The position numbers were made by a program, and so were the translations under genes. The notes beneath the pieces were generated by a model. The model did no database searches, was not told where the DNA came from, and was given only the letters and a program-made list of their open reading frames with translations. Source: Constantimarinum furrinae (GTDB lineage: Bacteria; Bacteroidota; Bacteroidia; Flavobacteriales; Flavobacteriaceae). From it: DNA of 64,000 nt. The first letter of the stretch is position 1. Each line of letters begins with the position of its first letter. The stretch spans positions 2,232,001-2,296,000 of the forward strand of contig NZ_CP052909.1 in assembly GCF_014295415.1 (NCBI RefSeq), written 5' to 3'. Positions 46,761 to 50,162 of this stretch are shown here, in pieces.

Positions 46761-46801
46761 AAAGCGAAACCCCCACTCGGCAAGATGCGTCGTGAGGGTT
46801 T
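46758..46801 (-). terminator. Interrupted-stem terminator of the first YG-repeat gene
   Basis: On the minus strand the arms AAACCC.CAC (46767-46776) and GTG.GGGTTT (46792-46801) pair with one C/A mismatch after six base pairs, and then a run CTTTTT follows. It lies 23 bases after the stop at 46825. Confidence 0.65.
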
Positions 46802-46803
46802 CT

Positions 46804-46821
46804 AACTAACCAACCAAAAAA
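46804..46821 (-). repeat. 18-nt 3' element, copy 1
   Basis: AACTAACCAACCAAAAAA on the plus strand, i.e. TTTTTTGGTTGGTTAGTT on the sense strand of the gene, three bases after its stop and directly before the terminator. An identical copy follows the paralogue at 48454-48471. Confidence 0.75.
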
Positions 46822-46824
46822 TTT

Positions 46825-48243
46825 TTACAATCCTCTTCCTCTTCGTTGAGAAGAACTTCTAGAGGTACTTCCTTTTCTATTACCGGAAGACTTAGATCTG
46901 TTTACAGAACCCCTGCCGGCTTTCGATGCGTCTGAGCGCGAATTCGAGCTACGGGTCGCTTTCGATCCTCCTGACCTGGAACTTGTCGTTCTACTTGCTT
47001 TGGTGTTGCCAGATCTGGTATTCGAGCTTCTGGTGGCCTTAGAATTACCGGATCTTGTCGTAGCGGCACGCTTCACATTTCTGTTCCCCGATCGCTGCGT
47101 AGTATTTTTATTTACAGACCTTCCACCGGCTCGCATGGTTTTAGAACGGGTATTGGTGGATCTGTTTACAGTACTACTGCGCTTTGTTGCTCCTCTTTGA
47201 GGCGAAACTTTATTCGTTCGATCCTGCTTGTTAGCAATTCCACGGGTATTCCCGGTAGATCGCTTGTTTCTATCTGAATTACCATAACGGGTGTTCCCTT
47301 TGGAGACCGTTCTGTTCGTACCTTTCTCTACAGCACCACGTTTATTGTTATCGGATCTGTTGTTAATTACATCTCGTTTTCCTGAATTTCTGCTTACGGT
47401 ACCTTTTGTATTAGCACGTGAGTCGTTACGTTTAAAATTCGAACCTCTGTTAGAATCTGAACTGTTTCGCGCAAAATTCTTGGCTCTGCTATCGGTATTT
47501 CGAGCCACAGCAGTATTTCTTCTGTTCGGATTATAATCACGGTTTATAGTGGTTCTTCCGTCCTTATAATGTCTGCGGCTTCCAGGGTTGTAGAAGTTTC
47601 TACGTCCGTTGTTATACGTCACATGATGTCTGTTACTGTAATATTTTCTGTGTAAATGATAGCTGTAACGATGTGGGGTATAATATCTTCTATACGGATA
47701 ATCATATACAATACAGCTTGTATAATAAGGTCTTACATAATATACATGCCATGGACGATAAATATATCTTGGGGTCCAGTAGTTTATATATCCTGTACAA
47801 TGTGAAAAATATCCGTAGTTGTTATAATATACATGCAGACCACCCACACGCACGATACGACGATCGTTATAGCGTATTTCTGTATTTCCGGCCTGTACGA
47901 TACGTCCGTACTCATCGTAATAAATAGGTACATCTTCAACCTGGATCACAGCACCATAATCATCATACTGTACATAAGCTTCATAATCGTACCCGGAATT
48001 AAATGAAACACTCACGTTTGGAGTATTCACGTTTACATTAACGTTTCCACCCTGATTTGGCCCTACATACACAAAATCGAACTGACCATCGGGGAAGACC
48101 GAAAACTCTACGGTATCTTCAATAAAAATATAGGCGCTTCCATCGTATTTGGAAGGAGGAACTACTTCGGAGCCTACCGAAGCAGCCTTTGCGGTAAAGC
48201 CGATCGTGAAGATCGCGATTACTAATGCTGCTACTTTTTTCAT
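46825..48243 (-). CDS. Secreted YG-repeat protein with long basic Arg/Ser/Asn tail
   Basis: A 472-residue protein with a signal peptide (about 1-20). Residues 91-150 hold about three repeats of about 20 residues of the form Y-x-x-Y-G-x-[IV]-x-x-[VA]-x-x-x-x-[IV]-x-Y, e.g. YYDEYGRIVQAGNTEIRYN. Residues 151-220 are Tyr/His/Arg-rich, and 230-472 is an extremely basic low-complexity tail of R, K, S, N, T and G (e.g. TRSGNSKATRSSNTRSGNTK). No enzyme motif is visible. Its paralogue is at 48477-49064. A sigma-54-type promoter (48306-48321) precedes it. The tail could bind nucleic acid or anionic polysaccharide outside the cell; inference. Confidence 0.75.
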   Translation of the reverse strand: MKKVAALVIAIFTIGFTAKAASVGSEVVPPSKYDGSAYIFIEDTVEFSVFPDGQFDFVYVGPNQGGNVNVNVNTPNVSVSFNSGYDYEAYVQYDDYGAVIQVEDVPIYYDEYGRIVQAGNTEIRYNDRRIVRVGGLHVYYNNYGYFSHCTGYINYWTPRYIYRPWHVYYVRPYYTSCIVYDYPYRRYYTPHRYSYHLHRKYYSNRHHVTYNNGRRNFYNPGSRRHYKDGRTTINRDYNPNRRNTAVARNTDSRAKNFARNSSDSNRGSNFKRNDSRANTKGTVSRNSGKRDVINNRSDNNKRGAVEKGTNRTVSKGNTRYGNSDRNKRSTGNTRGIANKQDRTNKVSPQRGATKRSSTVNRSTNTRSKTMRAGGRSVNKNTTQRSGNRNVKRAATTRSGNSKATRSSNTRSGNTKASRTTSSRSGGSKATRSSNSRSDASKAGRGSVNRSKSSGNRKGSTSRSSSQRRGRGL

Positions 48244-48305
48244 AATAATTAATTTAGGATTGTACTTGCTTTATTTTTTTGGTCAGCTGGTACGATTCAA
48301 TAATT

Positions 48306-48321
48306 ACAACGACCGTGCCAA
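48306..48321 (-). promoter_or_regulatory. Sigma-54-type -24/-12 promoter, first YG-repeat gene
   Basis: On the minus strand: TTGGCACGGTCGTTGT. TTGGCACG is an exact -24 element, and after GG comes N10 and then GT at -12 (consensus GC). Transcription would start about 50 bases before the ATG at 48243. Sequence just upstream, AGGGATTTACATTTTTGG, resembles that of the paralogue. Binding by RpoN is inferred. Confidence 0.65.
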
Positions 48322-48405
48322 AAATGTAAATCCCTGATTTATAAGGATGTTCCAAAGCGGACCATTAGCGTATAGCAAAACGCCATAAGATATACGAAGC
48401 GCCAT

Positions 48406-48448
48406 TAAAAATAAAAATCCGCCGAATCTTCTTACGGATTCGACGGAT
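48406..48448 (-). terminator. Interrupted-stem terminator of the second YG-repeat gene
   Basis: On the plus strand ATCCGCCGAATC (48417-48428) and GATTCGACGGAT (48437-48448) pair with one C/A mismatch after five base pairs. On the minus strand a TTTTTATTTTT tract follows. It lies 28 bases after the stop, as in copy 1. Confidence 0.75.
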
Positions 48449-48453
48449 CTAAA

Positions 48454-48471
48454 AACTAACCAACCAAAAAA
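48454..48471 (-). repeat. 18-nt 3' element, copy 2
   Basis: Identical to 46804-46821: AACTAACCAACCAAAAAA on the plus strand, five bases after the stop of the second YG-repeat gene and before its hairpin terminator. Confidence 0.75.
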
Positions 48472-48476
48472 CTATA

Positions 48477-49064
48477 TTATTTTCTTTTTCGTTTACGATC
48501 ATTGTCTATCCAATAATCGTTATTATTCTTATACCAATCTTCGTGCCAATATTTTTCATTATATCGGTTTACTGAACCACGAAGGTCTTTTATCTCGCCG
48601 TAGTGATTGTATTTTATTTTTAGATCACCTACCTCCTTAAGCAGCCCTTTATGATATTTTAAAGGAATACGACCTATGGATCGAACCTGCCCGAATCGAT
48701 TATAGGTAATCAATGATTCACCTACTCGCACTACTTGTCCATACTGGTTAACGATAAGCCTAGGCTCGTAGCTTCTTCTGTTCGAGGTATACACTACCTG
48801 TCCGGGTGCTGAAGGGTAGTAGATGGTGTTATGCGTTCTTCTGTTATACGTATTTACATACATTTGTTGAAGATCACGAAACTGAAAAGTTCCATCGGTT
48901 CTCACGGCATAAAGTACGCCATTCTCTACAAATCGTATTTCCTGAGCATTGTAATAGCGATACTGTTTCCCCGGGTCTCGATCTGTATTCTGGCGGCGTT
49001 GAGAAAAAGTCTGTGTAGTCATTCCAAAGAGGAATACAGCTACTAATAAAATTCCTTTTTTCAT
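48477..49064 (-). CDS. Secreted YG-repeat protein, short paralogue
   Basis: A 195-residue protein. The start at 49064 (MKKGILLVAVFLFGMTTQTFSQ) gives a normal signal peptide; an upstream in-frame ATG (49142) overlaps the promoter and is rejected. Residues 100-168 hold three to four repeats, VNQYGQVVRVGESLITYN, RFGQVRSIGRIPLKYH and NHYGEIKDLRG, clearly aligned with those of the 46825-48243 product; the N-terminal LYAVRTDGTFQF also matches its EFSVFPDGQFDF. The tail is short and basic (RKRKRK). Function unknown. It shares a sigma-54-type promoter and the same 3' layout with its paralogue. Confidence 0.75.
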   Translation of the reverse strand: MKKGILLVAVFLFGMTTQTFSQRRQNTDRDPGKQYRYYNAQEIRFVENGVLYAVRTDGTFQFRDLQQMYVNTYNRRTHNTIYYPSAPGQVVYTSNRRSYEPRLIVNQYGQVVRVGESLITYNRFGQVRSIGRIPLKYHKGLLKEVGDLKIKYNHYGEIKDLRGSVNRYNEKYWHEDWYKNNNDYWIDNDRKRKRK

Positions 49065-49131
49065 AATACTTGAATTTAGGGTGATGCCGACATAATAAGC
49101 GATGCGACTTACGCTATTTGGACAGTATAAT

Positions 49132-49147
49132 CCAATAGCCATGCCAA
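49132..49147 (-). promoter_or_regulatory. Sigma-54-type -24/-12 promoter, second YG-repeat gene
   Basis: On the minus strand: TTGGCATGGCTATTGG. TTGGCA is the -24 core; GG-N10-GG gives the correct spacing, with the -12 dinucleotide GG instead of GC. It lies about 68 bases before the ATG at 49064. The upstream stretch GGATGTTACAATTTTGGCA matches the paralogue's GGATTTACATTTTTGGCA. Confidence 0.6.
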
Positions 49148-49190: not shown

Positions 49191-50072
49191 TTAACGTATA
49201 ATGAATTTATCCGTTTTAAGCATAGTGTTTTCTGAATACACCCTGTAGAAATATAAGCCGGATCGAAATTGCAGGGCATTGATAAAGTAGTACTCTGAGT
49301 CTACCTTACATTCCTGTAAGATCTTTCCCGAAATATCAAGAATTTGAATCCTGTCTATATTAGCTTCGGAAGGGAAGTTAATGCTTGAAACATCTGAAAC
49401 CGGATTGGGAGAAATAACAATGGAAGGAAATAAATTCTCCTCGATCCCAAGATCATAAATGCATTGACTATATCCATTAAAAAAGGTAGTTTCTCCGTCA
49501 TTTTCAAAACAAACCAAGGCTCTATATATCCAATCAAGGTAGTTTCCTGCCGGAGATATACCGGCCGTAGAGCCAATGCCCTCGATCCATTGCTCTTCAT
49601 AACCAGAGAACGACTGAAGGTCGTAGCCTTGCATATACATGACTTTACGATCTTCACCGGCTATAAATTCTGTTGTAATATTATCTACAACCAACCTATC
49701 GTACCATCCTCCGCTACCTGCATAAAAACAAGATTCATTTTCTTCCGGAAAAATAAAAGAGTCTCCAATCTCTAAATGAAAGTCAAGAAGGACATGTTCA
49801 GTATTGGTATTGGTATCCAACTCAATAAGAACTCCATCCTCCTCCCGCCATCTACAGCTAGTTGCCGTTCCCGAATAGGTTTGAATGATGAACTTATAGA
49901 CCGTGCCATTAATTATTTCTTCTCCTTCCACGTGATAATAAGTGCTCGCAAAACCCCATCCAGTATCCGAACCAAGACTCCATTGTTGACCTTCGTTCAA
50001 AATAGGAAGATAAGGCTGTGCAACGGAAACGTTCAGAATAAATACACAGCAGAGAAGGAGTAGTTTTTTCAT
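49191..50072 (-). CDS. Secreted protein with T9SS type A C-terminal sorting domain
   Basis: About 293 residues from the ATG at 50072, chosen because MKKLLLLCCVFILNVSVAQ is a normal signal peptide; an upstream ATG adds nine residues. The C-terminal 80 residues are a T9SS sorting domain (VISPNPVSDVSSINFP, IQILDISGKILQE, LRF/FRSGLYFYRV-type strand). The central part has a few cysteines (SCRWREEDG, ESCFYAG, ALVCFENDG, SQCIYDLG) and no motif that I recognise. It is probably exported to the cell surface. It lies between uvrA and the YG-repeat genes on the same strand. Confidence 0.83.
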   Translation of the reverse strand: MKKLLLLCCVFILNVSVAQPYLPILNEGQQWSLGSDTGWGFASTYYHVEGEEIINGTVYKFIIQTYSGTATSCRWREEDGVLIELDTNTNTEHVLLDFHLEIGDSFIFPEENESCFYAGSGGWYDRLVVDNITTEFIAGEDRKVMYMQGYDLQSFSGYEEQWIEGIGSTAGISPAGNYLDWIYRALVCFENDGETTFFNGYSQCIYDLGIEENLFPSIVISPNPVSDVSSINFPSEANIDRIQILDISGKILQECKVDSEYYFINALQFRSGLYFYRVYSENTMLKTDKFIIR

Positions 50073-50162
50073 ACCAAACAATTTATGATGAGTAAGCATC
50101 GGTCAAAATTAATCGCCATAGACCGAGACTGTCTACTAAATATACAATAATTGAATGCGAAA

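Follow-up and report, generated by a model that had tools for sequence, protein, structure and literature searches.

The window analyzed here, a 64,000-nt stretch of Constantimarinum furrinae DNA, appears to carry part of a sigma-54 regulon of exported proteins together with a member of an associated small RNA (sRNA) family unknown to Rfam, a reading to which we assign a probability of roughly 0.7. The more specific proposal, which we favor with somewhat less assurance, is that this is an undescribed family of sigma-54-dependent sRNAs in marine Flavobacteriaceae, that its seed-terminator module is common to the mRNAs of the regulon, and that in this genome its promoter lies inside the coding sequence of a secreted protein. 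The evidence, which comes from sequence comparison, consists of the conservation of the promoters, a shared 3′ module, free-standing copies of that module linked to sigma-54 promoters, a hairpin-seed-terminator architecture in the predicted RNAs, and a covarying pseudoknot in a 5′ untranslated region (UTR).

The two genes at the center of the analysis lie on the minus strand. The short paralogue (48477..49064) encodes a protein of 195 aa with a signal peptide, YD-like beta repeats and a basic tail; the long paralogue (46825..48243) encodes 472 aa, with a signal peptide, YD-like beta repeats and a long basic tail rich in Ser, Arg and Asn. The sequence-only reading had described the genes as paralogous and their products as secreted, and both descriptions hold: the proteins share 27% identity (E = 1e-10), and each has a signal peptide. 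Neither protein scored above a Pfam cut-off or matched an NCBIfam model, and the YD/RHS repeat models of both collections failed to match either paralogue. A Foldseek search returned a weak match to the teneurin YD shell (E = 0.06). Inferring function from the fold was abandoned, since no reliable relative emerged and the models of the two paralogues were poor (pLDDT 62 and 46). Between uvrA and the short paralogue is a gene (49191-50099, minus strand) whose product has a type IX secretion system (T9SS) C-terminal sorting domain; in relatives, uvrA or a gene with such a domain is followed by the sRNA or by the long gene.

Two sigma-54-type 16-mers had been proposed upstream of these genes, and both lie on the minus strand exactly where they had been placed. 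P1, TTGGCATGGCTATTGG, precedes the short paralogue (49132..49147; predicted start ~49120), and P3, TTGGCACGGTCGTTGT, precedes the long paralogue (48306..48321; predicted start ~48294), with the predicted start defined as 12 nt downstream of the −12 position. The distance to the start codon, claimed to be 50-70 bases, is 62 nt for P3 (ATG at 48243) and 67 nt for P1 (ATG at 49064). An upstream ATG selected by the gene caller, at 49142, overlaps the −24 element of P1 and is not the start of the short gene. The −24 element TTGGCAC with its invariant GG is found at the window sites and in homologues. The GG-N10-G spacing was likewise found at both sites, whereas the canonical GC at −12 was not, the C being replaced by T in one site and by G in the other. 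A weight matrix was built from 26 training sites, all from other genomes, and scanned on the window. P3 received the highest score (26.6 bits), and P1 ranked third (15.7 bits). Random 64-kb sequence scanned with the same matrix reached a mean maximum of 13.3 bits and a highest value of 17.9 bits; the score of P1 falls inside this range, and P1 is thus supported by conservation rather than by score. The second rank, at 16.0 bits, went to a site absent from the sequence-only reading, at 48549-48534.

Conservation of the −24/−12 block upstream of homologues, which the same reading had named as a check, was evident and rules out a chance match of the window motifs. In an independent set of loci from named genomes, a −24/−12 site lies within 220 bp upstream of 78 of 80 long-gene homologues, and the remaining two retain the −24 half. 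The opposite strand upstream of these 80 homologues contains no −24/−12 motif. Among 351 other ORFs in the same loci, the motif precedes 15, all of which are family paralogues by sequence. Similarly, TTTTTGGCAYR-N4-TTG is found upstream of nearly all of 28 homologous ORFs from relatives. Alignment of 99 sites yielded TTTTTGGCACG-N4-TTG, with the C at −12 almost missing: it occurs in none of the 26 training sites and in approximately one of 78 homologue sites, and it is frequent, although not universal, in groES promoters. No universal activator-binding site was found in the 99 aligned upstream regions; the most frequent upstream words (AACTAACCAACCAAAA) represent the 3′ end of the preceding gene and not an activator site.

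The two window genes also share their 3′ ends, which lie outside the coordinates considered previously. Each gene ends in UUUUUUGGUUGGUUAGUU and an intrinsic terminator, the order being stop codon, TTTTTTGGTTGGTTAGTT, and a terminator of freely varying sequence. Behind the short gene, the element occupies 48454..48471 and the terminator, which would serve both the short transcript and the candidate sRNA, occupies 48413..48449 (−18.8 kcal/mol); behind the long gene, the corresponding positions are 46804..46821 and 46766..46802 (−19.5 kcal/mol), all on the minus strand. An exact GGTTGGTTAG within 120 nt past the stop codon was found for 75 of 97 long genes, 12 of 31 short genes and 17 of 528 other ORFs. 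Sixteen of these 17 ORFs are closely followed by a free-standing copy, and one overlaps a family ORF. The exact element is missing from 22/97 long and 19/31 short genes. In the genome of the window, TTTTTTGGTTGGTTAGTT occurs exactly twice, behind the two paralogues, and TTTTGGTTGGTTAGTTT with at most one mismatch is likewise found behind these two genes only. The shorter description TTTGGTTGGTT has 13 copies in the genome, three of them at gene 3′ ends with a stop codon before and a terminator after, and all three of those genes have a −24/−12 site. The third is a gene for a 308-aa lipoprotein, with TTTTTGGCATAGCTTTTGG, of the −24/−12 type, upstream and an altered copy of the element with a small insertion, TTTTTGGTTGGTTATTTAGTT, behind it; a homologue in another genus has both promoter and 3′ element too. 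A general terminator signal was ruled out, the element being missing from nearly all other terminators. No description of the element was found in open-licence papers. Copies also lie behind genes with no visible −24/−12 site (L189, L192 and L212, the last encoding a small exported Spy/CpxP-like protein of 152 aa, identified by eye) and in places of no clear context (L193, L211 and L214). Two near-identical intergenic repeats, L219 and L220 (G000:C1:1802006 and 1917890), carry TTTGGTTGGTTACTCTATTGATTA behind a terminator, on opposite strands, and probably represent an unrelated repeat.

The second-ranked site, P2 (TTGGCACGAAGATTGG, 48534..48549, minus strand), is a sigma-54-like putative promoter within the last codons of the short ORF, which encode WHEDW. 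A composite search that is independent of the protein, in which a −24/−12 promoter is followed after N(38-68) by the seed, matched P2 in the genome of the window (L234), with a predicted start at 48522. The candidate sRNA would extend over 48413..48522 (minus strand) and comprise a 5′ hairpin (~48520-48495), the conserved seed and the terminator. The short ORF thus probably carries an internal sigma-54 promoter for an sRNA. Alternatively, P2 could be a coincidence of conserved Trp-His-Asp-Asp-Trp codons, in which case the window would produce two mRNAs only and no separate sRNA. The codons TGG CAY GAY GAT TGG necessarily resemble TGGCAY-N5-TTGG, and the score of P2 taken alone is inside the chance range for 64 kb. 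However, the residues between the two Trp vary (WHDDW, WHEDW, WHEGW, WHDSW, WHTNW and WHRDW) while TGGCAY...TTGG is constant, and of the short genes, 12 of the 13 that have the 3′ element contain a P2-like site, whereas the 18 that lack it contain none. Moreover, the free-standing copy in L083 has the very same 16-mer as its intergenic promoter, and the hairpin immediately behind P2 is the second strongest of 56 (z = −6.2). These data make amino-acid coincidence the less likely cause of P2, although it is the alternative that survives best. If P2 is indeed a promoter, one DNA stretch in this genome combines codons, a promoter and an sRNA, and such an embedded promoter hints at how an sRNA might originate in a protein-coding gene and persist after that gene is lost. 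In relatives, the sRNA may have outlived the short ORF or preceded it.

Additional evidence for an sRNA came from copies of the element that do not follow a family ORF. Homologous loci contain 130 distinct copies, 98 behind a family ORF and 32 not. Most of these 32 are found where other genomes have the short gene, with uvrA or a T9SS-type gene on one side and the long gene on the other, and they are 40-100 nt downstream of a −24/−12 site. Including further loci and excluding copies with no clear context, 38 copies were classified as free-standing, that is, not behind an ORF. A promoter lies within 130 bp in 36 of the 38, against an expected 0.04. Their predicted RNAs are 51-131 nt long (median 94) and contain no ORF of more than 20 aa. 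The family was sampled at one genome per genus; in 27 of these 199 Flavobacteriaceae genomes the composite search found sites, with 0 in the control, and none of the sites outside the genome of the window overlaps an ORF of at least 60 aa. Relatives therefore have units with their own promoter and terminator and no coding capacity, whereas the unit in the window overlaps the end of an ORF. In an order-wide sample, the composite occurred in 2 of 396 genomes, indicating that the unit is not order-wide and is confined to part of the family. Tandem free-standing units were observed in L099 (1146 and 2272) and L240, those in L099 lying behind two tandem T9SS-type genes.

The RNAs predicted at the composite sites, ~70-130 nt long, have a common architecture of 5′ hairpin, open seed and terminator. 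The 5′ parts are predicted to fold more stably than dinucleotide-shuffled sequences (mean z −2.2; z below −2 in 29 of 56), and the mean unpaired probability is 0.63 in the seed, compared with 0.39 over the RNA as a whole. No Rfam match at E <= 0.1, to FopS/GibS or to any other family, was obtained in eight loci that contain free-standing copies. A second alternative is that the promoters are genuine sigma-54 promoters and the 3′ element acts in cis on the mRNA, as a protein-binding site, a stability element or an aid to termination, with no trans-acting sRNA. Most copies are directly behind a stop codon, flavobacteria are without Shine-Dalgarno pairing, and Bacteroidota use RRM-type RNA-binding proteins (PMC11697453), all of which would suit a cis role. 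We nevertheless consider this doubtful: the sigma-54-linked copies without an ORF in 26 other genomes, with structured 5′ parts, leave no mRNA on which to act in cis, and the absence of the element from nearly all other terminators argues against a general termination signal. It is very improbable that the free-standing copies are relics of a degenerating short gene, still present only because its loss was recent. They do occupy the position of the short gene in other genomes and share terminator sequence with it, but 26 other genera retain an intact promoter and seed, some copies are at loci unrelated to the short gene (L185, L188, L190, L201 and L208), others are tandem duplicates, and the hairpins outperform shuffles. 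With a conserved seed, defined promoters and one to few copies per genome, the proposed sRNA family is testable and would be tied to an RpoN response of the cell exterior.

Sigma-54 control requires rpoN, whose presence the sequence-only reading had left to be checked; the genome has a single rpoN gene, the product of which has activator-interacting, core-binding and DNA-binding domains and an intact RpoN box (ARRTVAKYRE). The gene was found in all 40 genomes tested. Three strong PF00158 AAA+ activators are encoded in the genome: a receiver-AAA+ protein with no HTH, a kinase/NtrC-like pair, and an AAA+-HTH protein with no receiver, whose gene is followed by one for a small lptE-like lipoprotein. 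The proposal of a regulon comprising the two paralogues was supported as regards sigma-54 control of both genes, and proved too narrow in its limit of two, given the third gene described above, lon, groES and the internal site. Here, as for all genome-wide statements, the sites were identified by pattern searches: lon has its own −24/−12 site, TTGGCATATTAATTGA, and groES promoters in the same genomes have the form TTGGCAYAATTTYTG[CT]. Three intergenic −24/−12 candidates in this genome (L041, G000:C1:1397290; L042, G000:C1:1730348; L046, G000:C1:2553360) precede genes for a TonB-like protein, a Tyr/Gly-rich lipoprotein and lon. In Flavobacterium psychrophilum, RNA-seq placed a −24/−12 motif at groES, lon, dnaK, gliding genes, genes for exported proteins without known function and a single regulatory RNA, and mutation confirmed one of these promoters (PMC9723704). 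With rpoN, the activators, the conserved motif, the groES and lon sites and this mapped motif, P1 and P3 are well supported as sigma-54 promoters, apart from the nearly always absent C at −12. That missing C is what would favor another sigma factor, such as an ECF factor, a reading made highly improbable by TTGGCACG with GG-N10-G spacing, which is the sigma-54 pattern, by the mapped and mutated F. psychrophilum motif (PMC9723704), and by the similar sites at groES and lon in this genome.

Flavobacteriaceae largely lack the usual Hfq and Shine-Dalgarno mechanisms, and post-transcriptional control in the family is poorly known. Elsewhere, the sRNA GlnZ is linked to sigma-54. In Enterobacteriaceae, GlnZ derives from the glnA 3′ UTR (PMC9731577); it differs from the present family in phylum, sequence and genes, and in that most flavobacterial copies have their own sigma-54 promoter. 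There are parallels with FopS/GibS of Bacteroides thetaiotaomicron (PMC11697453), also from the Bacteroidota, which is a multicopy, mostly intergenic family with one 3′ UTR-derived member and a conserved single-stranded seed followed by an intrinsic terminator. One difference is the seed sequence; another is that FopS uses the housekeeping promoter, whereas the present family has a 5′ hairpin and sigma-54 promoters. The closest regulon is that of F. psychrophilum (motif SM4, PMC9723704), which shares −24/−12 promoters, three PF00158 activators, chaperone genes, lon, exported proteins of unknown function and one sigma-54-dependent regulatory RNA (Rfp36); no common 3′ RNA element was described there. 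The proposed sRNA family may account for the abundance of functionally uncharacterized exported proteins in the flavobacterial sigma-54 regulon.

Taken as a mechanism, RpoN polymerase and one of the three AAA+ activators would transcribe the short and long genes from separate −24/−12 promoters, the trigger being an envelope or surface signal sensed by the cell. Each mRNA would end in the unpaired U-rich seed, UUUUUUGGUUGGUUAGUU, and an intrinsic terminator. This 3′ module would act as a small regulatory RNA made from P2 inside the end of the short ORF, with processing of the mRNAs as a second possible source. In relatives with no short ORF, the hairpin-seed-terminator unit would remain as a free-standing, sigma-54-driven sRNA. 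A stable sRNA of this kind would most likely base-pair through its GGUUGGUUAG seed, one candidate target in the clade of the window being the loop (ACCAAAAA) in the 5′ hairpin of the long mRNA; such pairing would provide feedback within the regulon.

This hairpin is predicted at the very start of the long mRNA (48262..48293, minus strand), with a loop, GACCAAAAAAAUAA, complementary to the 3′ element. The loop in this clade reads GACCAAAAAAA and can pair with UUUUUUGGUU; this loop sequence is missing from other clades. Compared with shuffled UTRs, the complementarity reached p <= 0.05 in 30% of 82 genes, whose sequences are related, and the pairing is a lead only. The 5′ UTR of the short gene contains a predicted H-type pseudoknot (49086..49115, minus strand), which begins ~5 nt after the predicted P1 start and consists of AGCG/CGCT and a 7-bp second stem. 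Among eight sequences, three pairs of the second stem have both sides changed, and 97.7% of cells pair, compared with 27-51% for slid positions of the partner strand. The coincidence of the beginnings of conserved RNA structures with the predicted sigma-54 starts provides indirect support for those starts. In six loci of short-gene homologues, DUF805b (RF02914) scored above gathering (35.6 bits). Rfam did not report the 5′ UTR copy in the window as DUF805b, and this pseudoknot is therefore only DUF805b-like, a divergent relative; it too is a compact pseudoknot-type element at an mRNA 5′ end, but with a longer second stem and no GAAAA. A role for DUF805b as part of sigma-54 control was ruled out, since it mostly follows other promoters in the family. 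DUF805b RNAs were observed at mRNA 5′ ends family-wide (G000:C1:2333341-2333372 and L048-L077), and their position mostly behind non-sigma-54 promoters marks them as a general 5′-end element.
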